From a virus, in the IMG/VR virus record IMGVR_UViG_3300045995_000622, positions 1-24,244 of that record: 24,244 nt of DNA; one strand, written 5' to 3'. Position 1 is the stretch's first letter. The number at the start of each line of letters is the position of its first letter. Below, one piece after another: positions 3,035-20,630 of this stretch. A program made the position numbers and the translations under genes. The notes under the pieces were generated by a model that was given only the letters and a program-made list of their open reading frames with translations, searched no databases and was not told the DNA's origin.

Positions 3035-3706
3035 ATGAGCGAGATGAACGAAAATAGCCAGGTGCCTGGGCAAATGGTGCTATTCCGAGAGGTGATGCAA
3101 TGTGAAACCAGACGGCTGAAGAGCCTCGCAAAAGAGCGTTTTTGTTGGGAGTATGTCACGAGTGGGGGGAAAGCCCCTGATTCGTATTTGGCAACGATCA
3201 ATCCCAGTGTGGACAGGGTCCAGGCGTCGAAGAATGCGTCGAAACTTTTGAATAATGGAGAAATTAGGAGAAGAATCGACGAGATAGCGCAGATCATCAG
3301 GCAGAAGTACATGAACGAGGTTATTGCGTTCCGAGCGAAGACCCTGAATTTCGATCCCGGGCTGTTTTTTAAGAACGGAAGTCTGCTCCGAGTGCATGAT
3401 CTGCCGGAGGATCTGCGGAAGGGGATCGGCCTGGAGGCGAAGATCGTCGACGGCTGTCTCCATTACCTGCCGGTTTTCCCGTCGCCGGAGAAAGCGGCCG
3501 ATGCGCTGCAGAAGATTTTCGAGATGAACAAGGAAGGTCTGGCGCTGACCGGCCCGAACGGAGTACCGCTTGGAGATGGCATTACCGACATTGAACGAGC
3601 TTCGCGACTTGCTGCAATACTTGACACCGCAAGAACGCGACGAGATGGACAAGATCCTGCTGGCGGGGACGCCCCGGTGGGTGCCTCTGCCGGGTCCGCA
3701 GAGTGA
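3035..3706 (+). CDS. terS: Terminase small subunit
   Basis: 223 residues. Residues ~25-90 fit the terminase small-subunit DNA-binding domain: an 'F-x-x-E-Y-V' helix, a Y-L-A-T-I-N-P turn, 'ASKLLNN-x-E-I-R-R-R-I' and a following helix. This domain recognises the packaging site and loads DNA on the large subunit. The Arg-rich helix near 187-204 (I-E-R-A-S-R-L-A-A-I-L, then R-T-R-R-D-G) and the Gly/Ala-rich tail are usual for these proteins. The ribosome site before the ATG at 3035 is weak; the in-frame ATG at 3044 is an alternative. The 3' end overlaps the large terminase gene by 137 bases in another frame, unusually long. First gene after the terminator and palindrome. Confidence 0.8.
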   Translation: MSEMNENSQVPGQMVLFREVMQCETRRLKSLAKERFCWEYVTSGGKAPDSYLATINPSVDRVQASKNASKLLNNGEIRRRIDEIAQIIRQKYMNEVIAFRAKTLNFDPGLFFKNGSLLRVHDLPEDLRKGIGLEAKIVDGCLHYLPVFPSPEKAADALQKIFEMNKEGLALTGPNGVPLGDGITDIERASRLAAILDTARTRRDGQDPAGGDAPVGASAGSAE

Positions 3707-5732
3707 GGCGTATTACTGCGAGGCGGATGAGCTGCTGTTCGGCGGGGCTGCCGGCGGGGGTAAGACCGACCTGGCCCTCGGGCTGGCTCTCACTCAACAT
3801 CAGATTTCGGTAATTTTCCGTCGCGAGGGTGTCCAGCACAAGGGAAACATCGAGCGGCTTGCGGAGATACTCGGCACTCGGGACGGCTTCAACTCGCAGG
3901 ACCATATCTGGCGGACTAGCGGCAGGCTGATAGAGCTGGGCGCATGCAAGGACCCGGGGGACGAGGAGAAACACCAGGGGAGGCCGAAGGATCTGATCGT
4001 TTTCGATGAGATCTGCCATTTCCTGCGGATTCAATACCTGTTCCTGAAGGGTTGGAATCGAACGACGAGACCCGGCCAGCGTTGCCGGGTGGTTTGCACC
4101 GGAAACCCGCCGACAACGGCGGAAGGTCAGTGGGTGATTAAGCACTGGGCTCCATGGCTGGACAAGACGCACCCTAATCCGGCTCTGCCGGGGGAGCTTC
4201 GCTGGTTCGCGGTTCTGAACGGGGAAGATACGGAACTGCCGGACGGTCGGCCGTTCATGCACAAGGGAGAGTTGATAACGCCGAAGTCGCGGACGTTTAT
4301 CCCCTCAAAGGTTTCGGATAACCCGTTTCTGGTGGAGAGCGGCTATATTTCGACGCTCCAGGCGCTGCCGGAGCCTCTCAGATCGCAGATGCTTTACGGT
4401 GATTACCTGGCAGGGATGGAAGACGACCCTTGGCAGATAATCCCGACTCAGTGGGTGGAACTGGCAATGGCCAGGTGGAAAGAGGGCGGCATGCAGGGAC
4501 CGATGACATCAGTTGGGCTGGACGTTTCCAGGGGCGGGAAGGACAAGAATGTTGTCGCTCCCCGTTACAGTTCCTGGTATGACCGCCTGATTACCACTCC
4601 CGGCAAGGAAACGCCGAACGGCGCGGCCTCTGCCGGACTTGCCATGGCGCACCGAAAGGATGGCGCCGTGGTCAATGTGGATGTGATCGGGGTCGGGTCG
4701 AGCGCGTTTGATCACCTGATCGACAACGGTGTGCCGGTAAAACCGATTAATGGGGCGGAAGGGAGTACGCGGACAGACCGAAGCGGTCAGCTACGATTTG
4801 TCAACAAGAGATCGGCGCTGTACTGGGGATTCCGGGAAAAACTTGACCCGGAGCACGGTTCCGATGTGGCACTGCCGCCGGACAGCGAACTGAAGGCGGA
4901 TCTGTGCTCCGTGAAGTGGAGACCGACAACACGCGGGATCCAGGCCGAGAGCAAGGACGACATTTTCAAACGCCTGCGGAGATCGACTGATAAGGGAGAC
5001 GCGGTTATTTACGCCTCCGATGATTCCGAGGGGATTTTCGACCGGGCAAACCTGAAGTTTATGGAGGTCAGGCCGGAGACGCTGAACATCTACATCCTGG
5101 TGAGCAGGGCGTCGTCACGGCGGGCGGGCACCGATAACACGGCGATCGCGGTTATCGGAATCGACGCAGCGCGCAACAAGATCCTGCTGGACGGCTATTG
5201 CCATACCCTGACCCTGGAGGAACGCTACCTGGCGGTGAAGAACCTGCGCCGTTACTGGACGGAGCAGAAGGGCATTCAGATTGTTTCAGTCGGTTATGAG
5301 CGGCTCACCTACCGGTCTGATATCGAGTTCTGCGAGCAGCAGATGGAGCGGGACAAGGTTTGCTTTCAGATTGAGGAGCTTGTCTGGCCGCAGGATAACG
5401 ATGAGGCGGAGAAGGACCGGATCCGCAGGCTTACGGCTGATTTTTCCCGGAAGGCATTTTACCTGATCGCCAAAACGGAGCGCGACACGACCCTTCAGGC
5501 GAAGTTCCGGAGCAGCGGCAAGGCCCACCTGATCCGCCAGCCGACGAAGCGCAAAGACCAGAACGGACAGGTCTATTCCCTGAACAACAAGTTTACCAAC
5601 GAATATCTGGTTTATCCTTCGGTCCCCTACGCCGATATGCTGGATGCCTGCTCCCGGATTTACGACATGGATTACAGCGCTCCGCAGATCGTAGACGACA
5701 GGGACCTGGAACCCCAGGATTGGAGTGAGTGA
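3570..5732 (+). CDS. terL: Terminase large subunit with two apparent nuclease modules
   Basis: 720 residues, some 200 longer than most large terminases. ATPase: Walker A (G-G-A-A-G-G-G-K-T, 58-66), Walker B (L-I-V-F-D-E, 142-147), coupling motif T-G-N-P-P (177-181). First nuclease: G-L-D-V-S-R-G-G with Asp318, Asp371 in V-N-V-D-V-I-G, and Asp477 in K-G-D-A-V, a complete acidic trio. From ~505 a second RNase H-like module begins: 'V-S-R-A-S' then G-T-D-N-T-A-I-A-V-I-G, V-G-Y-E-R (Glu577), and A-D-M-L-D-A (Asp689, Asp692); the usual first Asp (V-D-P-A) is Ser512 here. The TTG at 3570 has GGAG six bases upstream; ATG 3576 or 3645 are alternatives. It drives DNA packaging with the small subunit and portal. 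Confidence 0.85.
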   Translation: MEMALPTLNELRDLLQYLTPQERDEMDKILLAGTPRWVPLPGPQSEAYYCEADELLFGGAAGGGKTDLALGLALTQHQISVIFRREGVQHKGNIERLAEILGTRDGFNSQDHIWRTSGRLIELGACKDPGDEEKHQGRPKDLIVFDEICHFLRIQYLFLKGWNRTTRPGQRCRVVCTGNPPTTAEGQWVIKHWAPWLDKTHPNPALPGELRWFAVLNGEDTELPDGRPFMHKGELITPKSRTFIPSKVSDNPFLVESGYISTLQALPEPLRSQMLYGDYLAGMEDDPWQIIPTQWVELAMARWKEGGMQGPMTSVGLDVSRGGKDKNVVAPRYSSWYDRLITTPGKETPNGAASAGLAMAHRKDGAVVNVDVIGVGSSAFDHLIDNGVPVKPINGAEGSTRTDRSGQLRFVNKRSALYWGFREKLDPEHGSDVALPPDSELKADLCSVKWRPTTRGIQAESKDDIFKRLRRSTDKGDAVIYASDDSEGIFDRANLKFMEVRPETLNIYILVSRASSRRAGTDNTAIAVIGIDAARNKILLDGYCHTLTLEERYLAVKNLRRYWTEQKGIQIVSVGYERLTYRSDIEFCEQQMERDKVCFQIEELVWPQDNDEAEKDRIRRLTADFSRKAFYLIAKTERDTTLQAKFRSSGKAHLIRQPTKRKDQNGQVYSLNNKFTNEYLVYPSVPYADMLDACSRIYDMDYSAPQIVDDRDLEPQDWSE

Positions 5733-5881
5733 TGTCAGACGCCCCGACTTTTACAACTATCCAGTGGAGAGAAATTGTCGAAAGGGTTGACCCTGAGCCG
5801 GAAGATACCACGGAGTACGAGTTTTCCAACGGCAGGAAGTTCAAGCGTGAGTCAGATGGGAAACTGCATGGAGAAATCTGA
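5732..5881 (+). CDS. Small acidic protein between terminase and portal
   Basis: 49 residues, not recognised. The ATG overlaps the terminase stop (TGATG) and has GGAG six bases upstream (5722-5725). The peptide runs from a Thr-rich N-terminus through 'QWREIVERV' to an acidic stretch and ends 'NGRKFKRESDGKLHGEI', which reads as a folded helix-plus-strand mini-protein. Tight packing between two essential genes and a good ribosome site make it likely real. Function unknown. Confidence 0.6.
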   Translation: MSDAPTFTTIQWREIVERVDPEPEDTTEYEFSNGRKFKRESDGKLHGEI

Positions 5882-6014
5882 CCAGGACGATTACGAAAAG
5901 CTCCCCGCCTCGATCCAGGCCATATATTCCCGCAAGGAATGGCTCTGGCTGTCGGATGCCGAGAAGGCGGGGCTGGTGGAGCGTGAATGCGAACCGGAGG
6001 TTTATGATGATTAA
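5868..6014 (+). CDS. Small conserved-looking phage protein
   Basis: 48 residues from the ATG at 5868. The frame stays open further upstream (to an ATG at 5775), but that part overlaps the preceding gene and looks non-protein-like; ATG 5856 is another option. The peptide is acidic, with 'LPASIQAIYSRKEWLWLSDAEKAGLVERE', a helix-turn-helix-like layout frequent in small proteins between terminase and portal genes of related phages. It overlaps the genes on both sides by 14 and 8 bases. Function unknown. Confidence 0.55.
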   Translation: MEKSDQDDYEKLPASIQAIYSRKEWLWLSDAEKAGLVERECEPEVYDD

Positions 6015-6357
6015 TGTTGATGATTCCCTTCAGAGGATTCTTTTTCCGCAGGATGTCATGCTCCAGACCGAGCTGGAAAAGGTGCTCCACCGCCATTACC
6101 CTGGCCATGCATGGTCTGTTGACTGTAACATCCGCCAGGGGATGATCAATGTCCATAACCTTTTCCTTTCCGGGATGTACGGTTTTCGGCTGAAGCTGCA
6201 CGGCGCATTTTCGGCATCACAGGTGGAGCATGATGTGATGATGGCGGGCGGGGAACTGCTGGAGAGATACCGATTGACCAGGGGAGAGTTTAACGTTGAG
6301 AAATGGTGCGGTCTGCGCACCGATTTCGCGGGTAACCTGATTGCCGATAGGGGCTGA
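6007..6357 (+). CDS. Small protein upstream of portal, unknown function
   Basis: 116 residues. Two adjacent ATGs occur at 6004 and 6007; GGAGG at 5996-6000 favours 6007 by spacing. The frame extends further upstream to 5956, but that part is Arg/Trp-rich shadow of the preceding gene. The N-terminus is helical with hydrophobic periodicity (L-Q-R-I-L-F, L-E-K-V-L); the middle (~40-75) looks like beta strands with 'WSVDCNIRQGMINVHNLFLSGMYG'; the C-terminus is helical. Not recognised. It ends one base before the portal ATG, within the packaging operon. Confidence 0.6.
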   Translation: MINVDDSLQRILFPQDVMLQTELEKVLHRHYPGHAWSVDCNIRQGMINVHNLFLSGMYGFRLKLHGAFSASQVEHDVMMAGGELLERYRLTRGEFNVEKWCGLRTDFAGNLIADRG

Positions 6358-6358
6358 A

Positions 6359-8464
6359 ATGATCACTGACATCGCCACCAGGTCAAATGTAGATCAGAAC
6401 CAATACCGGGAATGGCTTGAGCTTGCCGACAATTCCTTCAGTACATCCTCGTCATGGTTTGATTTAAATGTCCGCCCTGAAGTCGAAAAGAACCTGCGCC
6501 AATTCCAAAGCCTCCACCCGCAGGGCTCTAAATACCTCTCCAACGATTACAAGAACCGGTCGAAACTATTCAGGCCCAAATCCCGGGCGGTGTTGAGAAA
6601 GAGCGAGGCGGTCTGCGCCGGTGCTTTCTTTTCATCGGAGGATGTTGTCGCGATCCGTCCGATGAATGAACGGGACCCGTTCAACCTGATGGCCGTGGAT
6701 TTTTTCAAGGAGCTCCTGCAGATACGTCTGACCCGGCCTTTTCCTGTCGGCATCCCATGGTTTATGACGCTTGTCGGCGCGTTCCAGGAAACGAACGTTT
6801 GCGGCGTGGTCGTCTCGAAGCAGGAATGGCATGTGGACGAGAAGAAGGGTATTGACCGCCCGCGCATAATCCTGCGCCCAGTGGAGAATGTGCGAATCGA
6901 TTCCGCGGCCGACTGGACGGACCCGGTTAATTCGTCGCCGTTTCTGATCGACATGATCCCCATGTATGTCGGCGATATCAAAAAAAGGATGTCCGACTCC
7001 ACGCCTGAAGACGAGAGATGGTTCCCCCTTTCCGAGGCCGATATCCGCAGCGCCGTATCCAATTCATTCGATTCTACCCGGCAGGCCCGTGAAGGCCAGG
7101 GCCGCACGGACAGCAAGGAGACGTCGAACGCCATCACCGATTATACTATCGCCTGGGTCCACGACAATATCATCTCCAGGGACGGGGAGGATTACGTTTA
7201 CCAGACCCTGGGCACCAGGTACATGCTGAGTGAGCCGAAGCCGCTGGCCGAAGTCTATGCCATGGGGATACGACCCTATGCCATGGGGATATCCATCCTT
7301 GAGGCGCATAGGGTGTACTCCACCGCCAAGATTGCCCTGGGACGTGACACTCAGAAGGAGGCTAACGAGATCAGCAACGAGCGCCGGGACAATGTGAAGC
7401 AGATGCTTAACCCGCGCTGGAAGGCGTTGAAGGGAAAGCAGGTCGATCTGCGCAGCCTGACCAGGAATGTCCCTTCGTCCGTTACGCTCCTTACTAACCT
7501 GACGGACGCGGAGATGATCGAAACGCCAGATGTGACCGGTGAAAGTTTCGCCGAGCAGGACCGGGTGAATGGTGATTTTGACGAGGTTATGGGGAACTTC
7601 TCATCCGGCAGCGTCCAGAACAACCGCCGGCTGAATGAAACGGTGGGCGGGATGGATCTCCTATCCATGGATGCAGATATTGTTGGGGAATATGACCAGA
7701 AGGTTTTTGTCGAGACTTGGGTGGAGCCGGTTCTTCGCCAGATGATAAAGCTGGAAAGACGCCACGAGACGAACGACGAGGTTCTGCGTATGGCCGCGAT
7801 GGCTGCCGGAATCAAGGAGGAGGATATCAGCGAAGGGTTGATAGACCTGCTCCTGAATCAGGAGGTGCTCCTGAATGTCAACGTGGGGATAGGATCCACG
7901 AATCCTCAGAAACAGTTGGACCGGTTTGTTACGGTGACCAAGTCGGCGCTGGAACTACTTGGAGACAGGGTAGCGGGGAAACTCAAGGTCGATGAGGTGA
8001 TTAAGGAGCTCTACGGCAAGGCCGGGTACAAGGACGGCGCCAGGTTCTTTGATCTGTCGGAAAAGCAGGCCGACCCGATGGAGGCGCTACAGGCGGCGGT
8101 TGTCCAGGCGAAGGTGGAACTTACCCAGGCGCAGACGAAGAAGACGCTGGAGGATGCGGAGCAGTCGAAGGCGGCGAAGGTGGTCAAAATGGTCGAGGCG
8201 CTTTATTCCGCCATGCAGACTGCGCAGACTGCCGTTACCGTGCCGGGGGTTGCGCCGACAGCGGACGCTATAGCCAAAAGCGCCGGCTACGTTGACCAGG
8301 ACCGCGCTCCGATCTATCCGGACCAGCAGGGAGTTGTCGAGGCCGCGCCGGTTCCGGAAGTTCGGGAGAATACGTCTCCCATGTTTCCGCCTCAACCGAT
8401 AGGCCCGGGCGAAGGGATGATGAAGGGGATTGAAACTCAGGACAATGACGGGGTGAATGAATGA
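6359..8464 (+). CDS. Portal protein
   Basis: 701 residues, the size usual for portals of short-tailed phages. It follows the terminase, and AGGGG at 6349-6353 lies five bases before the ATG; the in-frame TTG at 6341 is rejected. Features: N-terminal 'YREWLELADNSFSTSSSWFDLNVRPEVEKNLRQFQS', 'LFRPKSRAVLRKSEAVCAGAFF' around residue 75, wing/stem segments, and Asn-rich 'NRRLNETVGGMDLLS' near 425. The last ~130 residues hold long helices rich in Ala, Gln, Glu and Lys, fitting a barrel or crown domain. Twelve copies form the ring that terminase docks on and DNA passes through. A 21-bp near-tandem duplication (about 7255-7296) gives Y-A-M-G-I twice, seven residues apart. Confidence 0.8.
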   Translation: MITDIATRSNVDQNQYREWLELADNSFSTSSSWFDLNVRPEVEKNLRQFQSLHPQGSKYLSNDYKNRSKLFRPKSRAVLRKSEAVCAGAFFSSEDVVAIRPMNERDPFNLMAVDFFKELLQIRLTRPFPVGIPWFMTLVGAFQETNVCGVVVSKQEWHVDEKKGIDRPRIILRPVENVRIDSAADWTDPVNSSPFLIDMIPMYVGDIKKRMSDSTPEDERWFPLSEADIRSAVSNSFDSTRQAREGQGRTDSKETSNAITDYTIAWVHDNIISRDGEDYVYQTLGTRYMLSEPKPLAEVYAMGIRPYAMGISILEAHRVYSTAKIALGRDTQKEANEISNERRDNVKQMLNPRWKALKGKQVDLRSLTRNVPSSVTLLTNLTDAEMIETPDVTGESFAEQDRVNGDFDEVMGNFSSGSVQNNRRLNETVGGMDLLSMDADIVGEYDQKVFVETWVEPVLRQMIKLERRHETNDEVLRMAAMAAGIKEEDISEGLIDLLLNQEVLLNVNVGIGSTNPQKQLDRFVTVTKSALELLGDRVAGKLKVDEVIKELYGKAGYKDGARFFDLSEKQADPMEALQAAVVQAKVELTQAQTKKTLEDAEQSKAAKVVKMVEALYSAMQTAQTAVTVPGVAPTADAIAKSAGYVDQDRAPIYPDQQGVVEAAPVPEVRENTSPMFPPQPIGPGEGMMKGIETQDNDGVNE

Positions 8465-8750: not shown

Positions 8751-8767
8751 TTCACAACTATTGTGAA
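8751..8767. promoter_or_regulatory. 17-bp palindrome, copy 2 (putative operator)
   Basis: TTCACAACTATTGTGAA differs from the copy at 2974-2990 at one position (A for G), which leaves seven of eight arm positions paired. It lies in the gap before the scaffold gene. A TATAAA-like element occurs at 8778-8783, but spacing to any -35 match in the palindrome is poor. A second regulated transcription start or an RNA/DNA-binding control point for scaffold and capsid genes is possible. Confidence 0.55.
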
Positions 8768-8801
8768 CGACAGGGATTATAAAAAAAGCGAGGTAATGAA
8801 A

Positions 8802-9743
8802 ATGGGCAACGCCATCCATACGGACGCGGACGACCACGAAGAACAGGATGAATTATTGGAAGAAAAAGTAAGAGAAGAAGGGGAAGAGCGCCCCCTTTCG
8901 CAGCGGGAACTTATGCTGGAGCATATCGCGGCATCCCGCGAACAGGAGATGCTGAAGGAAAATCCAGCCGATGAAGAGCCGGCTGCGAAAGAAAAAGGCG
9001 CGGATCAGTTGGCTTCCAACCGGAAATTCCGGGTGAAGATTGACGGCCAGGAGCTCGAAGTCTCAGAGGAAGAACTGATCAAGGGATATCAGAAGGAGAC
9101 ATCGGCGGACAGGAAACTCCGGGAGATTTCCGATATCAGGAAAGAACTCCAGGCGGAGAAGGCCGAACTCGACGTGCTGAAGGAACAGCTTACCCGCCAG
9201 GTGCAGCCCGTAGTAAAAGAAGAGACCACCGATGGCGGCGAGGTTGACGAGTTTCAGGAGGCTTACGACCTCTCCCTGGAGGGAGATCCCAGTAAACTGC
9301 TGGCGCTCATGAAGCAGGGTTCCGGCAAAAAAGACATCTCGGCGGAAGAGCTTGACATTATCGTTGAGGAGCGCCTGAGCAAGAGGGAGACCGACCGCGA
9401 GCACAAGTGCGCCGAAGAAGCATTCAAGACGGATTATCCGGAGATATTCGGGAACCCGCACCTTCTTTCGGCGGCGAATGAGCGATATTTCGCAAAGGTT
9501 AATGAGGGGAAACCACTCAAGGAGGCCATGCTGGAAGCGGGGAAGGAAACCCGTGAATGGCTGGCGGAGATGGCCGGAGTCCGCAAACCGGATGTCGTAA
9601 CGAGGGAAGACAGGCTGAAGAACAAATCACGCATTTCCAACCTCCCTATAAGGGGAGCTCGGGCAGTGACGCAGGTTGATGACGACGATAAACCGCAGGA
9701 TCAAAGTTCGATCATTGCGGAGATGAAGGCCTCACGCGCGTAA
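8802..9743 (+). CDS. Putative capsid scaffolding protein
   Basis: 313 residues from ATG 8802; GAGG at 8790-8793 is 8 bases upstream, while ATG 8796 is too close and the in-frame GTG 8763 lies in the palindrome. The protein is highly charged, Glu/Lys-rich, with predicted coiled coil (~100-140, 'RKLREISDIRKELQAEKAELDVLKEQL'). 'KFRVKIDGQELEVSEEELIKGYQ' near residue 80-102 is a segment seen in many phage scaffold proteins. It stands directly before the major capsid gene. Scaffold directs shell assembly and leaves before or during packaging. A basic C-terminal stretch followed by an acidic end could be the capsid-binding tail. Confidence 0.7.
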   Translation: MGNAIHTDADDHEEQDELLEEKVREEGEERPLSQRELMLEHIAASREQEMLKENPADEEPAAKEKGADQLASNRKFRVKIDGQELEVSEEELIKGYQKETSADRKLREISDIRKELQAEKAELDVLKEQLTRQVQPVVKEETTDGGEVDEFQEAYDLSLEGDPSKLLALMKQGSGKKDISAEELDIIVEERLSKRETDREHKCAEEAFKTDYPEIFGNPHLLSAANERYFAKVNEGKPLKEAMLEAGKETREWLAEMAGVRKPDVVTREDRLKNKSRISNLPIRGARAVTQVDDDDKPQDQSSIIAEMKASRA

Positions 9744-9766: not shown

Positions 9767-10759
9767 ATGGGACAATTGTGGATTGATCATTCGGCGGACG
9801 GATATATGGCCTCCCCGAGACTTTCAAAGGTGCTGCGCTTTGCCGTGAAGCCCAAATGCAAATTCCGCCAGTTCGCAGACGTAAAAGACGCGGCGATTCA
9901 GGGCAAAGGCAAGGGCGATACCTTCCACTGGAACATCTATTCCGACCTGGCCACGCAGGGAACGACACTGACTGAGACCGACGTGATGCCGGAAACCAGC
10001 TATGCGGTCACCCAGGGGACGATGACGATCACGGAATTCGGGAACAGCGTTCCTTACTCCGGAAAACTGGACGATCTGTCCGAGATCCCGGTGAAGGATA
10101 TTATCACCAAGAACCTGAAGAAAGACGCCTACCGGGCTTTCGATATCGCCGCTCACGCCGAATTCAAACGGACCAAGTTGCGCATTTGCCCGACAGGCGG
10201 AACGTCAACCGAGGCGATTACCCTCACCACCAACGGCACATGCACCGCCACCAACTCCATCGCCCTGGGCCTCCTGCATGTAAAAACCATCTCCGACCTG
10301 ATGAAGGAACGGGATGTGGAGCCGTACACCGGTGATGACTATATGGCCATCAGCCACCCGACCACCTTCCGCCCCTTCAAGAATGATCTGGAAAGCGTAT
10401 ACAAATACACCGAATCCGGTTTCGACAGGATTTTCAACTCCGAGATCGGCAGGGCCGAAAACGTCCGCTTCGTAGAACAGACTTTCATCCCCAAGGGAGG
10501 CGCCGCCAACTCCACCACCTGGAACCCCAACACCCGCACGGCGGATGCCTGGGACAACGGTAAATCTTCCTGGGTATTCTTCTTTGGCGATGATGCAGTC
10601 GCCGAAGGGGTAGCCGTAGCCGAAGAAATCCGGGGCAAGTTGCCGTCGGATTACGGCCGGTCAAAGGGTGTCGCCTGGTATGCGCTGGAGGGCTTCGCCC
10701 TTGTCCATTTCGGGGATGTCGCCAACGAGAAGGTTTTTATGTGGGATTCGGCGGCATAG
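9767..10759 (+). CDS. Major capsid protein, N4 gp56-like
   Basis: 330 residues. Sequence pattern fits the N4 gp56-family major capsid protein (HK97 fold): an N-terminal arm with 'KVLRFAVKPKCKFRQFADVKDAAIQGKGKGD', Thr-rich strands (T-E-T-D-V-M-P-E-T-S-Y), 'FGNSVPYSGKLDDLSEI', a long helix with 'AAHAEFKRT', and C-terminal 'YALEGFALVHFGDVANEKV'. Such proteins form hexamers and pentamers of the icosahedral head. Placement right after the scaffold and a strong ribosome site (AAGGAGAAA before ATG) agree with high expression. Length is normal and no frameshift is visible. Confidence 0.85.
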   Translation: MGQLWIDHSADGYMASPRLSKVLRFAVKPKCKFRQFADVKDAAIQGKGKGDTFHWNIYSDLATQGTTLTETDVMPETSYAVTQGTMTITEFGNSVPYSGKLDDLSEIPVKDIITKNLKKDAYRAFDIAAHAEFKRTKLRICPTGGTSTEAITLTTNGTCTATNSIALGLLHVKTISDLMKERDVEPYTGDDYMAISHPTTFRPFKNDLESVYKYTESGFDRIFNSEIGRAENVRFVEQTFIPKGGAANSTTWNPNTRTADAWDNGKSSWVFFFGDDAVAEGVAVAEEIRGKLPSDYGRSKGVAWYALEGFALVHFGDVANEKVFMWDSAA

Positions 10760-11691: not shown

Positions 11692-12206
11692 CCTGGAGCC
11701 TTGAAAATTCCTGCGGCTTCGAATCGCGCAAGATCAAGTATCTTATCCCCCGCTATACCCGTGGCCGTGGCCTGGAGATCGGCTGCGGCCAGGAGAAGGC
11801 TTATCAGCACTTCATTGGCGTGGATAACGGCCACCATTTCGGCAAAGGCGCCGCCGACATTGTAGCGCAGGCGGATGACCTTTCCATGTTTGCCGATGAA
11901 TCCATGGATTTTGTTTTTTCATCCCATGTGCTGGAGCATATGGTGGATATGGGCAAGGCCCTGAGCGAGTGGGGCCGGGTAATCAAACCGGGCGGTTACC
12001 TGGTCCTATACGTCCCCTCCGCCAATCTCTACCCGAAAATGGGGGTGCCTGGAGCGAATCCGGATCATAAGCATGATATCTACCCAGGAGATATAGAGAA
12101 GATGTTAGAGGATGGAGTGCCCCACTGGGAAGAGATTGAATCGGAAGAAAGAAATCAAGATAACGAATACTCTCTGTTTGAAGTTTATCGGAAGGTGAAG
12201 CCATGA
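11688..12206 (+). CDS. SAM-dependent methyltransferase (class I)
   Basis: 172 residues. Motif I G-L-E-I-G-C-G (28-34), acidic end of strand 2 at F-I-G-V-D (42-46), motif with S-S-H-V-L-E-H-M (78-85) and I-K-P-G-G-Y-L-V-L-Y-V-P (~98-109) give the Rossmann methyltransferase order of the Methyltransf_11 group. It lacks an obvious DNA-methylase motif (no D/N-P-P-Y), so small-molecule, sugar or protein methylation is more likely. GTG start at 11688, with GGAG seven bases upstream; it overlaps the stop of the repeat protein. The ATG of the homing endonuclease overlaps its end. Paired with the glycosyltransferase downstream, it may modify a sugar on the virion or host surface. Confidence 0.75.
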   Translation: MTWSLENSCGFESRKIKYLIPRYTRGRGLEIGCGQEKAYQHFIGVDNGHHFGKGAADIVAQADDLSMFADESMDFVFSSHVLEHMVDMGKALSEWGRVIKPGGYLVLYVPSANLYPKMGVPGANPDHKHDIYPGDIEKMLEDGVPHWEEIESEERNQDNEYSLFEVYRKVKP

Positions 12207-12883
12207 CGGTGACTGTCTATGGGTTGGCATCATCCGAGGATGGGATTATCCGTTATATCGGACAGACGGTACAGCCAGCAAATTCCAGGTTGAGACAACA
12301 TATTTGGGAGGCCACAAGAAGGAAGGGGTTAAATGGCAAAAGCCGTAGAGTCTGGAACTGGATAGCGTCAGTCCTGAAAAAAGATCACAATATTTCAGCT
12401 ATAATCCTTAATCCCGACTCAGTATTACATGAGACTGAGATGAATTTCATCAAAGAGTATCGTGAAAATGGATATGACCTTATCAATGCAACAGATGGTG
12501 GGGAAGGGACGGTAGGGTATAAACTACATATGAAGCGGCCTTGGGTTTCTGAAATGAACCGAAGTAGGGCAGGAATTAAAACCAAACCGTTATCAGAAGA
12601 ACATAAGGCAAAAGTGTCAGCAGGTAACAAAGGGAAAAAACATCCCTGGCTGGTTGAAAGAAATAAACTTCTAACAGGCAAACCGGGAAGGCCGCAAACA
12701 GATGAAGAGCGAGCAAAAAGAAGCGCAACATTGAAAGGCAGAGTGTTCACCCCTGAATGGAAAGCAAAAATCTCGGCAAAGGCAAAAGGCAGAAAAGTAT
12801 CTCCTGAAACGACTAGAAAAAGAGTTGAAGGATTGCAGCGGTATCATCAACAAAGAAGAGAGGCCAAGATTGCAAGTTGCTAA
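12203..12883 (+). CDS. GIY-YIG homing endonuclease with NUMOD3-like repeats
   Basis: 226 residues. GIY-YIG core: V-Y-G-L (5-8) and R-Y-I-G-Q-T (17-22), catalytic Arg29 in R-L-R-Q-H, catalytic Glu79 in E-T-E-M-N-F-I, then L-I-N-A-T-D-G-G-E-G (93-102). The C-terminal half has several NUMOD3-type DNA-binding motifs (S-E-E-H-K-A-K-V-S-A-G-N-K-G near 130; D-E-E-R-A-K-R-S-A-T-L-K-G; P-E-W-K-A-K-I-S-A-K-A-K-G; P-E-T-T-R-K-R-V-E-G). It cuts DNA lacking the insert and copies itself by repair. Codons are clearly more A/T-rich than in flanking genes, a sign of separate origin. It is free-standing between methyltransferase and glycosyltransferase genes. Confidence 0.9.
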   Translation: MTVTVYGLASSEDGIIRYIGQTVQPANSRLRQHIWEATRRKGLNGKSRRVWNWIASVLKKDHNISAIILNPDSVLHETEMNFIKEYRENGYDLINATDGGEGTVGYKLHMKRPWVSEMNRSRAGIKTKPLSEEHKAKVSAGNKGKKHPWLVERNKLLTGKPGRPQTDEERAKRSATLKGRVFTPEWKAKISAKAKGRKVSPETTRKRVEGLQRYHQQRREAKIASC

Positions 12884-16327: not shown

Positions 16328-17251
16328 GTGGCTGAGTTCAATGGAGCTTCAAACTTCCCTTTTCCCACTGCAAGCGGGGTTATCAACGGCGTCAATGGCT
16401 CTGCTGATTTCCCCTTTCCAGCGGTTTCCGGGGCTCTCCTGCTGGCGATTGCCTTTGATGGTGCGGCGTCGTTCCCTTTCCCGGAGGCCGCTGGCCGGTT
16501 AAACCAATACTTCGACGGCGTGGCGGAGTTCCCGTTTCCTACCTGTTCGGGTGCGCTGGTTCTCGGAAGCGCGTTCGACGGCGCTGCTTCTTTCCCCTTC
16601 CCCTCGGCTCGGGGGACCATGGAAGCGGCATGGATCGGCGCGGCATTTTTCCCCTTCCCTACCGCAATCGGGGTTTTGGCGGCTTCAATCCCGCAAATGG
16701 AGGGTGCGGCATCGTTCCCCTTCCCCGTCGCAGTCGGCATCATGGCAGGCGCAAACCCGGACGAGTTTACAGTCCTGGTCATGAACCTGAAGAATAAGGT
16801 CGTCTCAATTTTCCAAAACTACAACTTCAATTCCGCCTGCAAGCTGAACGGCGTCTACCTGGGGGCGGCTTCCGATGGTATTCATATCCTTTCCGGGGCC
16901 GATGACAACGACGATCCCATAAGCGCCTCGATCACCATGGGGGATTCGGACTTCGGCCTGCCGAATGTGAAGATGATCCCGGAGCTTTTCCTTACCCTCT
17001 CGGGCGGGGAGATGGAGGTTTCTGTGTCCCGCGACCAGGCTGCGGAGATGGGAGACGCGGAGAATGATGTAAGAGGCCCCTACCCGGTTCCGGCCCCTGC
17101 GGATGGGAAGACGCAGACAAAACGGGCGAAGCTGCCGCAAGGTTTCCGGGGCGGACATTGGCAATTCAAGATTGCGAACGTGGCCGGGGGAGATTTCAAC
17201 CTGCAATCCATCGAGATCCCGGTGGAGAAGTCACAGAGGAGGCTCAACTGA
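16328..17251 (+). CDS. FPFP-repeat tail protein
   Basis: 307 residues in two parts. Residues 4-137 are seven imperfect repeats of about 18-22 residues of form [F/V/M]-x-G-[A/V/S]-[A/S]-x-F-P-F-P-x-x-x-G-x-[L/I/M], with FPFP starting at residues 10, 28, 49, 68, 89, 108 and 130. Residues ~150-307 form a separate beta domain ('VMNLKNKVVSIFQNYNFNSAC', 'GVYLGAASDGIHILSG', 'FRGGHWQFKIANVAGGDFNLQSIEIP', ending in R-R-L-N) that recalls domains in other phage tail proteins. GTG start at 16328 follows GGGGG. The stop overlaps the next ATG (TGATG). Likely a tail structural or receptor-binding component; function not established. Confidence 0.6.
   Translation: MAEFNGASNFPFPTASGVINGVNGSADFPFPAVSGALLLAIAFDGAASFPFPEAAGRLNQYFDGVAEFPFPTCSGALVLGSAFDGAASFPFPSARGTMEAAWIGAAFFPFPTAIGVLAASIPQMEGAASFPFPVAVGIMAGANPDEFTVLVMNLKNKVVSIFQNYNFNSACKLNGVYLGAASDGIHILSGADDNDDPISASITMGDSDFGLPNVKMIPELFLTLSGGEMEVSVSRDQAAEMGDAENDVRGPYPVPAPADGKTQTKRAKLPQGFRGGHWQFKIANVAGGDFNLQSIEIPVEKSQRRLN
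16337..16738 (+). repeat. Seven FPFP protein repeats
   Basis: The seven repeats vary at synonymous positions (TTCCCTTTC, TTCCCGTTT, TTCCCCTTC and others), so they are old and kept by selection on protein rather than a fresh DNA duplication. The result is a regularly spaced pyrimidine-rich tract on the + strand. Confidence 0.85.
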
Positions 17252-17883
17252 TGGGTGCAGGAATCTATAATTTCGTCGTGGAGCAGGGAGCTACCTGGAG
17301 CAAGCAGTTCTTTTTCGCGCAGAGCGATAAGGGGCTAATCACTCAGGCCGACTCGGAAAACTCAATAGTCGTTGACGCCACGGCTAAGACTTTCACCCGC
17401 GACGATGGCGGCTCATGGATTGATGACGGCCTCCAGGTGGGTGATTATCTGGTCAATGCCGGGCTCCAGGAGCAGGAAAACAACGGCTCTCACATCATCA
17501 CGGCACTGACGGCGCTGGTAATCACATGCGCGGGGTCCACGCTGAAGGATGAAACGGCGGTCCCATCCGTGACTGGTGAGCAGATCGTCATTCTGAAGGC
17601 GGAAGACCTGACCGGCCTGACCGGTGCGGCGATGGTTCGGAAGAGATACAAGGACACGGCGGCGGCGGCGACTATCGCGGTTTCTTTCGATGCCCTCCGC
17701 GTCAATGGCGCTGTTACCCTCTCTATGGCAAACACCGTCACGGCGGCAATCACATGCGGCGAAGCTGTTGATGCGCCTGCCAGCCAGTACGTTTGGGATT
17801 TCGAGACTACCAAGACCTCAACTGGGGTTGTGACAAGAAGACTTCAGGGCGTCGTATCCGTTTCCCCGGAGGCGACAAAGTGA
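17251..17883 (+). CDS. Phage structural protein preceding fibre gene
   Basis: 210 residues from ATG 17251, with GAGGAGG upstream and TGATG overlap. The longer open frame to 17158 is shadow of the previous gene. N-terminus '[19 protein letters not shown]' and C-terminal '[14 protein letters not shown]', '[17 protein letters not shown]', '[34 protein letters not shown]' match a widespread phage protein type found next to fibre or baseplate genes. Residues ~25-110 appear to be a domain inserted between these conserved ends. Its last codons overlap the fibre GTG by 4 bases, so the two are co-translated; a fibre anchor is possible. Confidence 0.55.
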
Positions 17884-20630
17884 GCGACGAACAGGATATA
17901 ACCGTTGTCGTGTCGTCAGAGGCGGGGGTGGTTGTCGTCCCGGCTCCCGATGCTCCGCAGCCGGTGGTTGTCGCGCCTGCCGATCCTCCCATGGTTGTAA
18001 TCGTGGGGAATATTCCGGGCGCGGACGGTGCTGATGGCGAACCTGGAGCGGACGGATTACCGGGGACTCCCGGCGCAGCGGGGGCCGATGGTGCTGCTGG
18101 AGCCGATGGGCAACCGGGGGCTGATGGACTGCCGGGCGCGCCCGGTCAAAACGGCCAGGACGGAACAGACGGCCAGGACGGCGCTCCGGGCGCAGATGGT
18201 GGAGATGGATTAAGTGCCTACCAGCTTGCACTAGTTGCCGATCCTCCCTTTGTCGGGACTTTGGAGGAGTGGTTGCTGTCGCTACAAGGTGCTGACGGTG
18301 CTGACGGCACTCCGGGAGCGGATGGCCAAGCGGGAGCGGACGGCTTAAATGGTGCTGACGGCGCTCCGGGCGCGCCAGGCTTAGACGGCGCTGACGGCGC
18401 TCCAGGGACGCCAGGCTTAGACGGCGCTGACGGCGCTCCAGGGACGCCAGGCTTAGACGGCGCTGACGGCGCTCCAGGGACGCCAGGCTTAGACGGCGCT
18501 GACGGTTTAGATGGCAACGACGGCGCGGATGGCGCAGCAGGAGCCGATGGAGCAGACGGTATTGGAACTGCCGAGTCTGTTGGTGCCTTAGTAAATTCTC
18601 TCACGGCTAAAACTACGCCTATTGATGCCGACCAGCTTGGCCTGATGGACAGCGCGGCAGCGAATGTCTGGAAGAAACTGTCCTGGGCAAACATCAAAGC
18701 AACGCTGAAAACTTATTTTGACACCCTTTATCCTTCAGGCTCTGGGACTTCAACCGGGGCAAATACGGGAGATCAAACCCTTCCTACAACACTTCCTCCG
18801 AATGGTTCTGCTGGCGGGGATTTAACAGGAACTTATCCTAATCCTACTCTTGCCGCTCTTGCTTCTCCTCCTACAGGTAGCTTTACAAACGCTAGTGTAA
18901 CTGTTGACGCTAAAGGTAGAATAACTGCTGCTGAAAGCGGCGCTGTTGTTAGTGGTTCAAGTACCAGTAAAAATATAGCACAAACTGCACACGGGTTTAG
19001 CATTGGTGAAATACTGACATTAAGCGGCAGCACTTACGTAAAAGCCAAAGCAGATAGTGTAACGACCTCAGACGTTGTAGGCATGGTATCCGCCGTAATA
19101 GACGCAAACAACTTCACACTCACTTGCTCAGGTTTTGTTTCCAGTCTGACAGGATTGACAGCAGGAGAGACGTACTTTCTTAGCGACAGCACAGCGGGAG
19201 CTATCACACTCACCGATCCTACAGCAATAAATTCGGTGTCCAAGCCTGTTTTCCTGGCAGCCACTACTTCCAGTGGCTATGTAATCAACTATCGCGGACT
19301 GATAAATGACGCCCCTGTTATTGCCAAGATTCTGACCGGGTATGTTTCCGGTGCAGGAGTTGTTGCAGCAACAGACTCGATTCTCCAGGCAATCCAGAAG
19401 TTAAATGGGAATGACGCTACCAACGCGAATCTGACAGGCCCCATAACCTCGGTTGGCAATGCCACCGCTATAGCTTCTCAGACTGGGACTGGCTCAACCA
19501 TTGTTGTCTCCGCCTCCCCGACTCTTACAGGAACTACAATATGCCCCACGATAAATGGTGGTACTGGAGCTAACGATGACATTACTATTCAAGGCACGTC
19601 AAACAGTACGAGAACAACAAGTTATGTAAATTTACAGCCTAATGGTGGTACTGTTGGAATAGGGACAGTAACTCCCGAAGCCGCCCTGGAGATTGGTTCG
19701 TATGGTAATCTTAGATTATCAGATTCTAATGTTTCAAGAATAGAAATACTTAACGGAGGAGCAAATAATAGTTCTCTGCTTTTTGACGCGGGATATTCTG
19801 GAGGGTATAAGAGTTCAAGTGCTCAAAGTAATTTCATGATAAATAAAGATGTGACAACACTGAATTTTAAGTACGCAGCGGGAGTTAGTGTTGGTAGTAC
19901 AGTTACTTGGATTGCTGGCTTGGTGTTTGATACAAGTGGTAGGTTGGGGATTGGAGTATCACCTAGTTACCTTCTCCAAGTAAATACCGACTCCGCCGGA
20001 AAACCTGGAGTTGGTGGGTTATGGACAGTAGTCTCGGATGAGCGGATTAAAAAGGACATAGTTAATGCCGATCTGACACTTTGTTATGAAAATATAAAAG
20101 CAATCCCCCTTAAATACTTCGGTTGGGCCGACGGGGTTTATTCTGAAGAACAGGTTAAAGACAGGCATAATCTGGGCTGGATAGCCCAAGATGTTCAGAA
20201 GGTATTTCCTAAAGCAGTAGGTGTTACACCTTTTACAAAAGCAGAGAAAGTTCCTAATGGAGTTGAAGAGTATGAAGAGCAGGATTTCATTCTAGAACAG
20301 GTGATTAAGAAGAATGTAACCTTTGATATAGTAAATGGTAAAGCTAAAAAAGTGGTAACTACTGAAATAGTTGAGGAAAAGAAACTGCTTTATGATGTTA
20401 TAGACATTGTAGACGATAAAGGCAAACCTGTTTTAGGCGAGAAAGGTGAACAGGAGAAACATCAAGTCCCCAAGATGGTCAAAAAGAGTAGAGATAAGGT
20501 CAAACAAGAAGTCATAGAAGACTGTCTTGATCTTAACTCCGGGCAATTAATTGCAACACTATACGGCGCAGTTCAGCATCTGATGATAAAGGTCGAAGAC
20601 TTGGAAAAGAAACTAAAGGTTAAGGTGTAA
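17880..20630 (+). CDS. Collagen-like tail fibre with C-terminal S74 chaperone domain
   Basis: 916 residues from GTG 17880 (GGAGG 17868-17872, seven bases upstream). Residues 47-110 and 137-229 are Gly-X-Y collagen-like tracts, rich in A-D and P, split by '[26 protein letters not shown]', a small motif common in phage fibres. Residues ~230-715 are Thr/Ser/Gly-rich beta segments. S74 peptidase/chaperone motif S-D-E-R-I-K-K-D-I starts at 719: Ser719 and Lys724 match the known Ser-Lys dyad, and '[17 protein letters not shown]' follows. In this family the domain trimerises the fibre, then cuts itself off before the Ser, so residues 719-916 should be released. Ends in a coiled coil. Host-receptor binding. 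Confidence 0.85.
18381..18505 (+). repeat. Three and a half perfect 36-bp tandem repeats in collagen-like tract
   Basis: A 36-base unit occupies 18381-18416, 18417-18452 and 18453-18488, with a partial copy to 18505. Each encodes [12 protein letters not shown], four Gly-X-Y triplets. The copies are identical at the DNA level, so gain or loss by recombination would lengthen or shorten the fibre shaft in steps of 12 residues without shifting frame. Confidence 0.9.

Follow-up and report, generated by a model that had tools for sequence, protein, structure and literature searches.

A large terminase subunit (TerL) of 720 aa, encoded in a 24,244-nucleotide stretch of the IMG/VR virus record IMGVR_UViG_3300045995_000622 (hereafter, the window), joins two terminase lineages in one chimeric protein. 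Sequence comparison establishes this fusion because the two halves belong to separate families of single-nuclease terminases and the junction is the linker that joins ATPase and nuclease in the second family. An ATPase and nuclease of the BPP-1/AP1 type (lineage A; nuclease A) run in frame into the nuclease of the resident lineage (nuclease B, nucB), which has lost its first catalytic Asp. Our main reading, to which we assign a probability of roughly 0.55, is that the phage took in a foreign motor core and retained its old nuclease as an adaptor that no longer cuts and serves for docking on the portal. Both domains come from known families; as far as could be checked, a terminase that combines these three domains, the second nuclease being retired, is undescribed, and full-text searches of open-licence papers found nothing relevant on tandem or chimeric terminase nucleases.

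Table 1. Positions in the window of the chimeric terminase, its parts, and the surrounding packaging and head genes.
Feature	Position	Strand	Basis or remark
Small terminase subunit (TerS), overlaps TerL start	3035..3706	+	body resident lineage, C-terminal tail lineage-A TerS-like
Chimeric TerL, ATPase A + nuclease A + nuclease B	3570..5732	+	720 aa ORF, homology, motif alignment
Approximate left junction, TerS/TerL border	3575..3590	+	TerS-resident similarity stops at residues ~180–184; sister DNA similarity from 3587
ATPase domain, residues ~3–300, BPP-1/AP1 lineage	3576..4469	+	tblastn 49–53% identity to AP1, DC33, BPP-1; motif alignment
Nuclease A (nucA), residues ~305–482	4482..5015	+	lineage alignment; D318, D371, third acid D474/D477
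Right fusion junction, residues ~483–487	5016..5030	+	inside nucB-family ATPase–nuclease linker; compared with loci L007, L011, L003 and lineage-A C-termini
Nuclease B (nucB), residues 488–720	5031..5729	+	resident lineage, terminase nuclease fold, motif-I Asp lost
Ser512 codon, first catalytic Asp position	5103..5105	+	alignment of single-nuclease relatives
C-terminal arm past last helix, residues 700–720, candidate portal contact	5667..5729	+	model secondary structure; arm role as proposed in PMC5727402
Small conserved gene between TerL and portal, resident lineage	5956..6357	+	shared with nucB-lineage loci
Portal protein, resident lineage, SU10_portal (PF23899), phrog_1216	6341..8464	+	family match and locus comparison
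Head scaffolding protein	8763..9743	+	context
Major head protein, resident lineage	9767..10759	+	context

Two terminase lineages in one open reading frame

Judged by alignment, residues 5–486 are a complete single-nuclease terminase of the BPP-1/AP1 type, with tblastn identities to isolated-phage TerLs of 52.8% (Acidovorax phage AP1), 51.5% (Limnohabitans phage DC33), and 49.4% (Bordetella phage BPP-1). The TerLs of this type (phrog_979, phrog_2) share the ATPase and first nuclease with the window protein at 49–53% identity but are 522–533 aa long, with one nuclease, a short C-terminal tail, and other portals. An earlier note on this DNA had recognized a full ATPase and a full nuclease here, and both held up: Walker A (GGAAGGGKT, residues 58–66) and Walker B (FDE, residues 145–147) align with lineage A, the window TerL matches phrog_979 in its N-terminal ATPase (E 1.4e-36), and nuclease A keeps 21 of 21 lineage-invariant residues. 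The catalytic acids that the note assigned to nuclease A stood in part: the parent lineage never varies at D318 and D371, and the third acid may be D474 instead of the proposed Asp477; BPP-1 and four loci have Ser at the latter position and retain D474. The assignment of nuclease A as an RNase H-like nuclease bearing catalytic acids comes from homology. The full-length AlphaFold model showed low confidence in this domain, an effect that probably stems from nucB-family rows in its alignment, and was left out of our reading of the domain arrangement.

Unlike a two-domain TerL with a single nuclease, the window protein continues in the same ORF into a second nuclease domain, with 234 residues following the point where the AP1/BPP-1 TerLs end (the "SPDxGx" region and a short tail). 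The right junction is clean: within ~5 residues the end of nuclease A (KGDAVIYAS) gives way to the resident ATPase–nuclease linker, which reads GIFDRANLKFMEVRPETLNIYIL in the window and GMFDKKDLRFADVRPATLNVYIM in locus L007. The TTG start at 3570 was assigned mechanically, and ATG 3576 is a possible alternative. Relatives of both halves are normal single-nuclease terminases of ~500–560 aa, so the extra length is not a family-wide trait.

Two other readings of the extra domain were considered and rejected. An intein does not fit, as the protein ends with nucB instead of returning to its earlier sequence, and the added stretch is a terminase nuclease in its own right. Production of nucB as a separate protein from an internal start would depend on the ATG at residue 498, which lacks a clear Shine–Dalgarno sequence and is not conserved in the sister phage described below; a single polypeptide is therefore assumed.

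Inserts were observed in other terminases. Four loci carry nucB-family terminase ORFs of ~730–930 aa with an insert-split ATPase (L015, 1046–3739; L044, 3919–6711; L056, 4102–6705; L058, 3–2204); the ATPase matches of L056 lie at 6–93 and 418–631, with ~325 aa between them. The inserts in these four terminases are likely inteins, because that of L015 has a LAGLIDADG_3 match. The lineage-A terminase of Aphanizomenon phage vB_AphaS-CL131 (MG209611, 58985–61615) was matched in two pieces over 877 codons, which suggests that it too carries a large insert, possibly an intein.

Origin, fold, and catalytic residues of nuclease B

In IMG/VR searches, residues 487–720 proved to be the regular nuclease at the C-terminus of a second terminase family. 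Their full length aligns to this domain in other TerLs with identities up to 53% (E down to 2e-79), bearing out the earlier proposal of a second nuclease module, here residues ~488–720. Across all fetched environmental-virus loci there were 130 distinct nucB proteins, of which 111 had a "B" ATPase before nucB (mostly 520–570 aa), 8 had an ATPase distantly like that of the window (~500 aa), and 9 were cut by contig ends. ATPase A and nuclease A preceded nucB in only two, the window and IMG/VR 3300002219_000827 (724 aa). The phrog_38 terminase large subunit was matched by 52 of the 54 members of a first nucB set; phrog_38 TerLs of environmental phages with SU10 portals share nucB and the same downstream portal and head genes with the window, but they have another ATPase directly before the nuclease, an intact motif-I Asp in all cases, and lengths of ~500–570 aa.

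An AlphaFold2 model of nucB built with 54 natural homologues (pLDDT 90.6, pTM 0.89) has an RNase H-like terminase nuclease fold. By fold comparison, its best matches in the PDB are the TerL nuclease domains of phages G20c and P74-26 (5m1f, 5tge), at ~10% sequence identity and a TM-score of ~0.5; these are single and active. The best viral predicted structure is a 499-aa terminase (TM 0.95, 46% identity). A sequence-profile search of the PDB with nucB found nothing where fold comparison did, Pfam returned almost nothing on the window nucB, nucB alone had no match in GenBank phages, and none was confirmed with either alignment in 84,980 prokaryote genomes.

By homology and fold nucB belongs with the phrog_38-type terminase nucleases, except that the invariant motif-I Asp of this family is replaced. 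The substitution of Ser512 for the first catalytic Asp, which the earlier note had pointed out, falls exactly in the motif-I Asp column: of the single-nuclease relatives with coverage here, 123 of 123 have D, and Ser occurs in the two double-nuclease proteins only. The other acids listed there do remain, as E577 and D692 are invariant across the nucB family and D689 nearly so (Asn in two relatives). In the model's secondary structure, Ser512 directly follows the core strand 505–511, Glu577 ends the strand 569–577, and Asp689/Asp692 begin the last long helix, which would put S512, E577, and D689/D692 at the places of the usual D-E-D set. They correspond in kind to D401, E458, and D542 of T4 gp17 (PMC9958956), which differs in having one ATPase and one active nuclease. 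Among the 48 nucB positions that are at least 95% conserved in an initial set of 59 relatives, 39 are kept in both fusions, four are changed in both (D512S, P513R, G580T, and K614E), and five more differ in one fusion only; position 614 is K in 127 of 127 relatives and E in both fusions.

The loss of an otherwise invariant metal-binding Asp supports the earlier suggestion that the second module is not a cutter, and we predict from it that nucB no longer cuts. The terminase nuclease fold has also been kept after loss of nuclease activity in phi29 gp16 (PMC7672431), a loss that in the window nucB is predicted from the missing Asp. In the phi29 protein the vestigial domain is the only nuclease domain, and the DNA it packages is of unit length, whereas the window TerL has an intact nuclease beside the retired one.

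A sister fusion and selection on nuclease B

The TerL of 3300002219_000827 is 78% identical to that of the window (69% in nucB) and has the same architecture, in-frame junction, flanks, and Asp-to-Ser change. DNA similarity between the two begins abruptly at 3587, at the TerL start, and is unbroken across 3587–5850. In the nucB tree both fusions form one clade with a long stem (~1.0 change per site) within a well supported group, so a single fusion event and a single loss of the Asp are indicated rather than many. Comparison of the two phages gave pN/pS ratios of 0.135 for the ATPase, 0.19 for nuclease A, 0.28 (0.22–0.35) for nucB, 0.29 for the portal, and 0.22 for the head protein, all of them upper estimates since synonymous sites are near saturation. 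Though nucB is the fastest-changing of the three TerL domains, its ratio and the complete lack of indels over 234 codons indicate that it is maintained, at about the rate of the portal; at the codon level, purifying selection on nucB is shown.

Genomic neighborhood of the fusion

The body of TerS (residues 1–184) matches the TerS of nucB-lineage phages at up to 49%, and its C-terminal tail weakly resembles lineage-A TerS (BPP-1; 41% over 53 aa, E 0.001). Together with the abrupt start of sister DNA similarity and the low identity of TerS between the two fusions, this mosaic shows, as far as sequence similarity can delimit it, that the foreign segment begins at the TerS/TerL border and stops where nuclease A ends. 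It is flanked by the resident TerS upstream and the resident nucB and portal downstream. TerS is only 36% identical between the fusion phages, compared with 78% for TerL, and thus appears to be either exchanged or fast-changing. The TerS and TerL frames overlap by ~130 bases (3570–3706) in both fusion phages, with a plausible protein in each, compared with 4 bases in BPP-1.

Downstream, the portal, the small gene that precedes it, and the head protein are of the nucB lineage, not the ATPase lineage. NucB turns up in 107 of the 108 distinct records that have the resident SU10-type portal and extend far enough upstream (102 within the fetched stretch and 5 elsewhere on the contig; the single exception is a 27-kb fragment), an association that arises partly from gene neighborhood and search bias. 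This portal was absent from all 12 lineage-A loci taken from IMG/VR, and lineage-A phages have at least three other portal types (phrog_332/449, phrog_156, and phrog_30703); the last ~119 residues of the AP1 portal are common to the window portal. A comparison of trees within the nucB family found no fine-scale co-evolution of nucB and portal. The two trees differ, with TerLs that have A-like ATPases forming one group by nucB and being scattered by portal, so the pairing of nucB and portal holds at the family level only. Whole terminases have thus been exchanged inside the nucB family. Seven loci (L008, L010, L011, L013, L019, L020, and L021) have single-nuclease terminases in which an ATPase distantly like lineage A (~30% identity) is joined directly to nucB, apparently another change of ATPase in front of this nuclease family.

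Elsewhere, the window encodes a Radical SAM superfamily protein (PF04055; 10–996), a GIY-YIG/NUMOD3 homing endonuclease (12203–12883) with a methyltransferase-like gene on one side and a 352-aa ORF lacking a family match on the other, an ORF with repeated FPFPxAxG-type motifs and no family match (16328–17251), and a tail fibre with collagen-like repeats and a C-terminal S74 intramolecular chaperone (17793–20630; ORF start mechanical).

Proposed mechanism and alternative explanations

We suggest that in a tailed phage with an SU10-type portal, the phage's own terminase ATPase was replaced by a complete foreign motor core, a BPP-1/AP1-type ATPase with its nuclease, which was joined in frame to the phage's own terminase nuclease. 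Nuclease A would make the genome cuts, and nucB would be retained, non-cutting, for the fit of this domain and its C-terminal arm to the resident portal, acting as a docking ring through which the foreign ATPase–nuclease unit is attached to the procapsid. Loss of the nucB active site would remove a second, uncontrolled cutter, and the lineage-A-like tail of TerS would match the foreign ATPase. Engine and cutter would then be foreign and central, flanked on either side by interface pieces that are native or matched, and it is from this layout that we infer the retention of nucB as a non-cutting docking ring. The docking role that we propose draws on the gene association of nucB with the portal. 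The nuclease ring of HK97 was fitted immediately under the portal (PMC10359639), terminase nuclease domains are believed to bind the portal (PMC7672431), the terminase C-terminal arm has been proposed to contact it (PMC5727402), and the C-terminus of T4 TerS determines specificity for its own TerL (PMC9958956). The orientation of terminase on the portal, including which domain faces it, is debated (PMC7672431). Against docking, lineage-A terminases elsewhere work with three or more types of portal and have no adaptor, and the two known fusion members represent one evolutionary event.

The earlier note had instead suggested a DNA clamp or regulator, in which nucB would keep its DNA-binding groove to grip or sense DNA or to gate nuclease A, like the vestigial domain of phi29 gp16. 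We consider this possible but less likely. The fold and most conserved residues of nucB are kept and the vestigial nuclease of phi29 still binds DNA (PMC7672431), but G580T and the charge reversal K614E, both outside motif I and present in both fusions, would disfavor DNA contact, and a clamp leaves unexplained why the domain of the resident lineage was retained beside the resident portal. No evidence specific to a clamp was found, and the genomic context, with nucB accompanying the resident portal and the resident TerS body, favors the portal-docking adaptor.

Less probable still is a recent fusion in which nucB is a decaying, functionless leftover. Its lost motif-I Asp, long stem branch, and rapid change relative to the other domains are what a relic might show, but the selection data already make this unlikely, as nucB is intact and without indels in two phages at 69% identity and a pN/pS of 0.28, with no change in either phage at 39 of 48 conserved positions. 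We likewise see little chance that nucB still cuts through an altered active site, with Ser512 or the nearby D522 standing in for the Asp in a two-nuclease motor that cuts the strands separately: the other acids are kept and D522 is present in the window, but D522 is variable across the nucB family, the motif-I Asp never varies in the active-type relatives, and P513 and K614 are changed too. An assembly or sequencing chimera could be suspected in a metagenomic virus record with only two examples of the arrangement, but it is refuted by the second contig, in which the architecture, the junction, the flanks, and the Asp-to-Ser change all recur around and within a protein of 78% identity, and DNA similarity runs unbroken through the fusion.

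Implications for terminase evolution

The fusion amounts to a natural domain-swap experiment, in which a foreign ATPase and nuclease were installed and the resident nuclease fold was kept minus an invariant catalytic residue. If nucB was retained for docking, the portal-binding and cutting jobs of the terminase nuclease domain have been separated, and the question of portal recognition becomes testable with purified domains. More tentatively, at somewhat less than even odds, we propose that the retired nuclease of this three-domain terminase is a dedicated portal adaptor and that phages could in this way swap whole packaging engines across incompatible capsids. If true, a retained native docking domain would offer a plug-in route for motor swapping, by which motors may pass between unrelated capsids.
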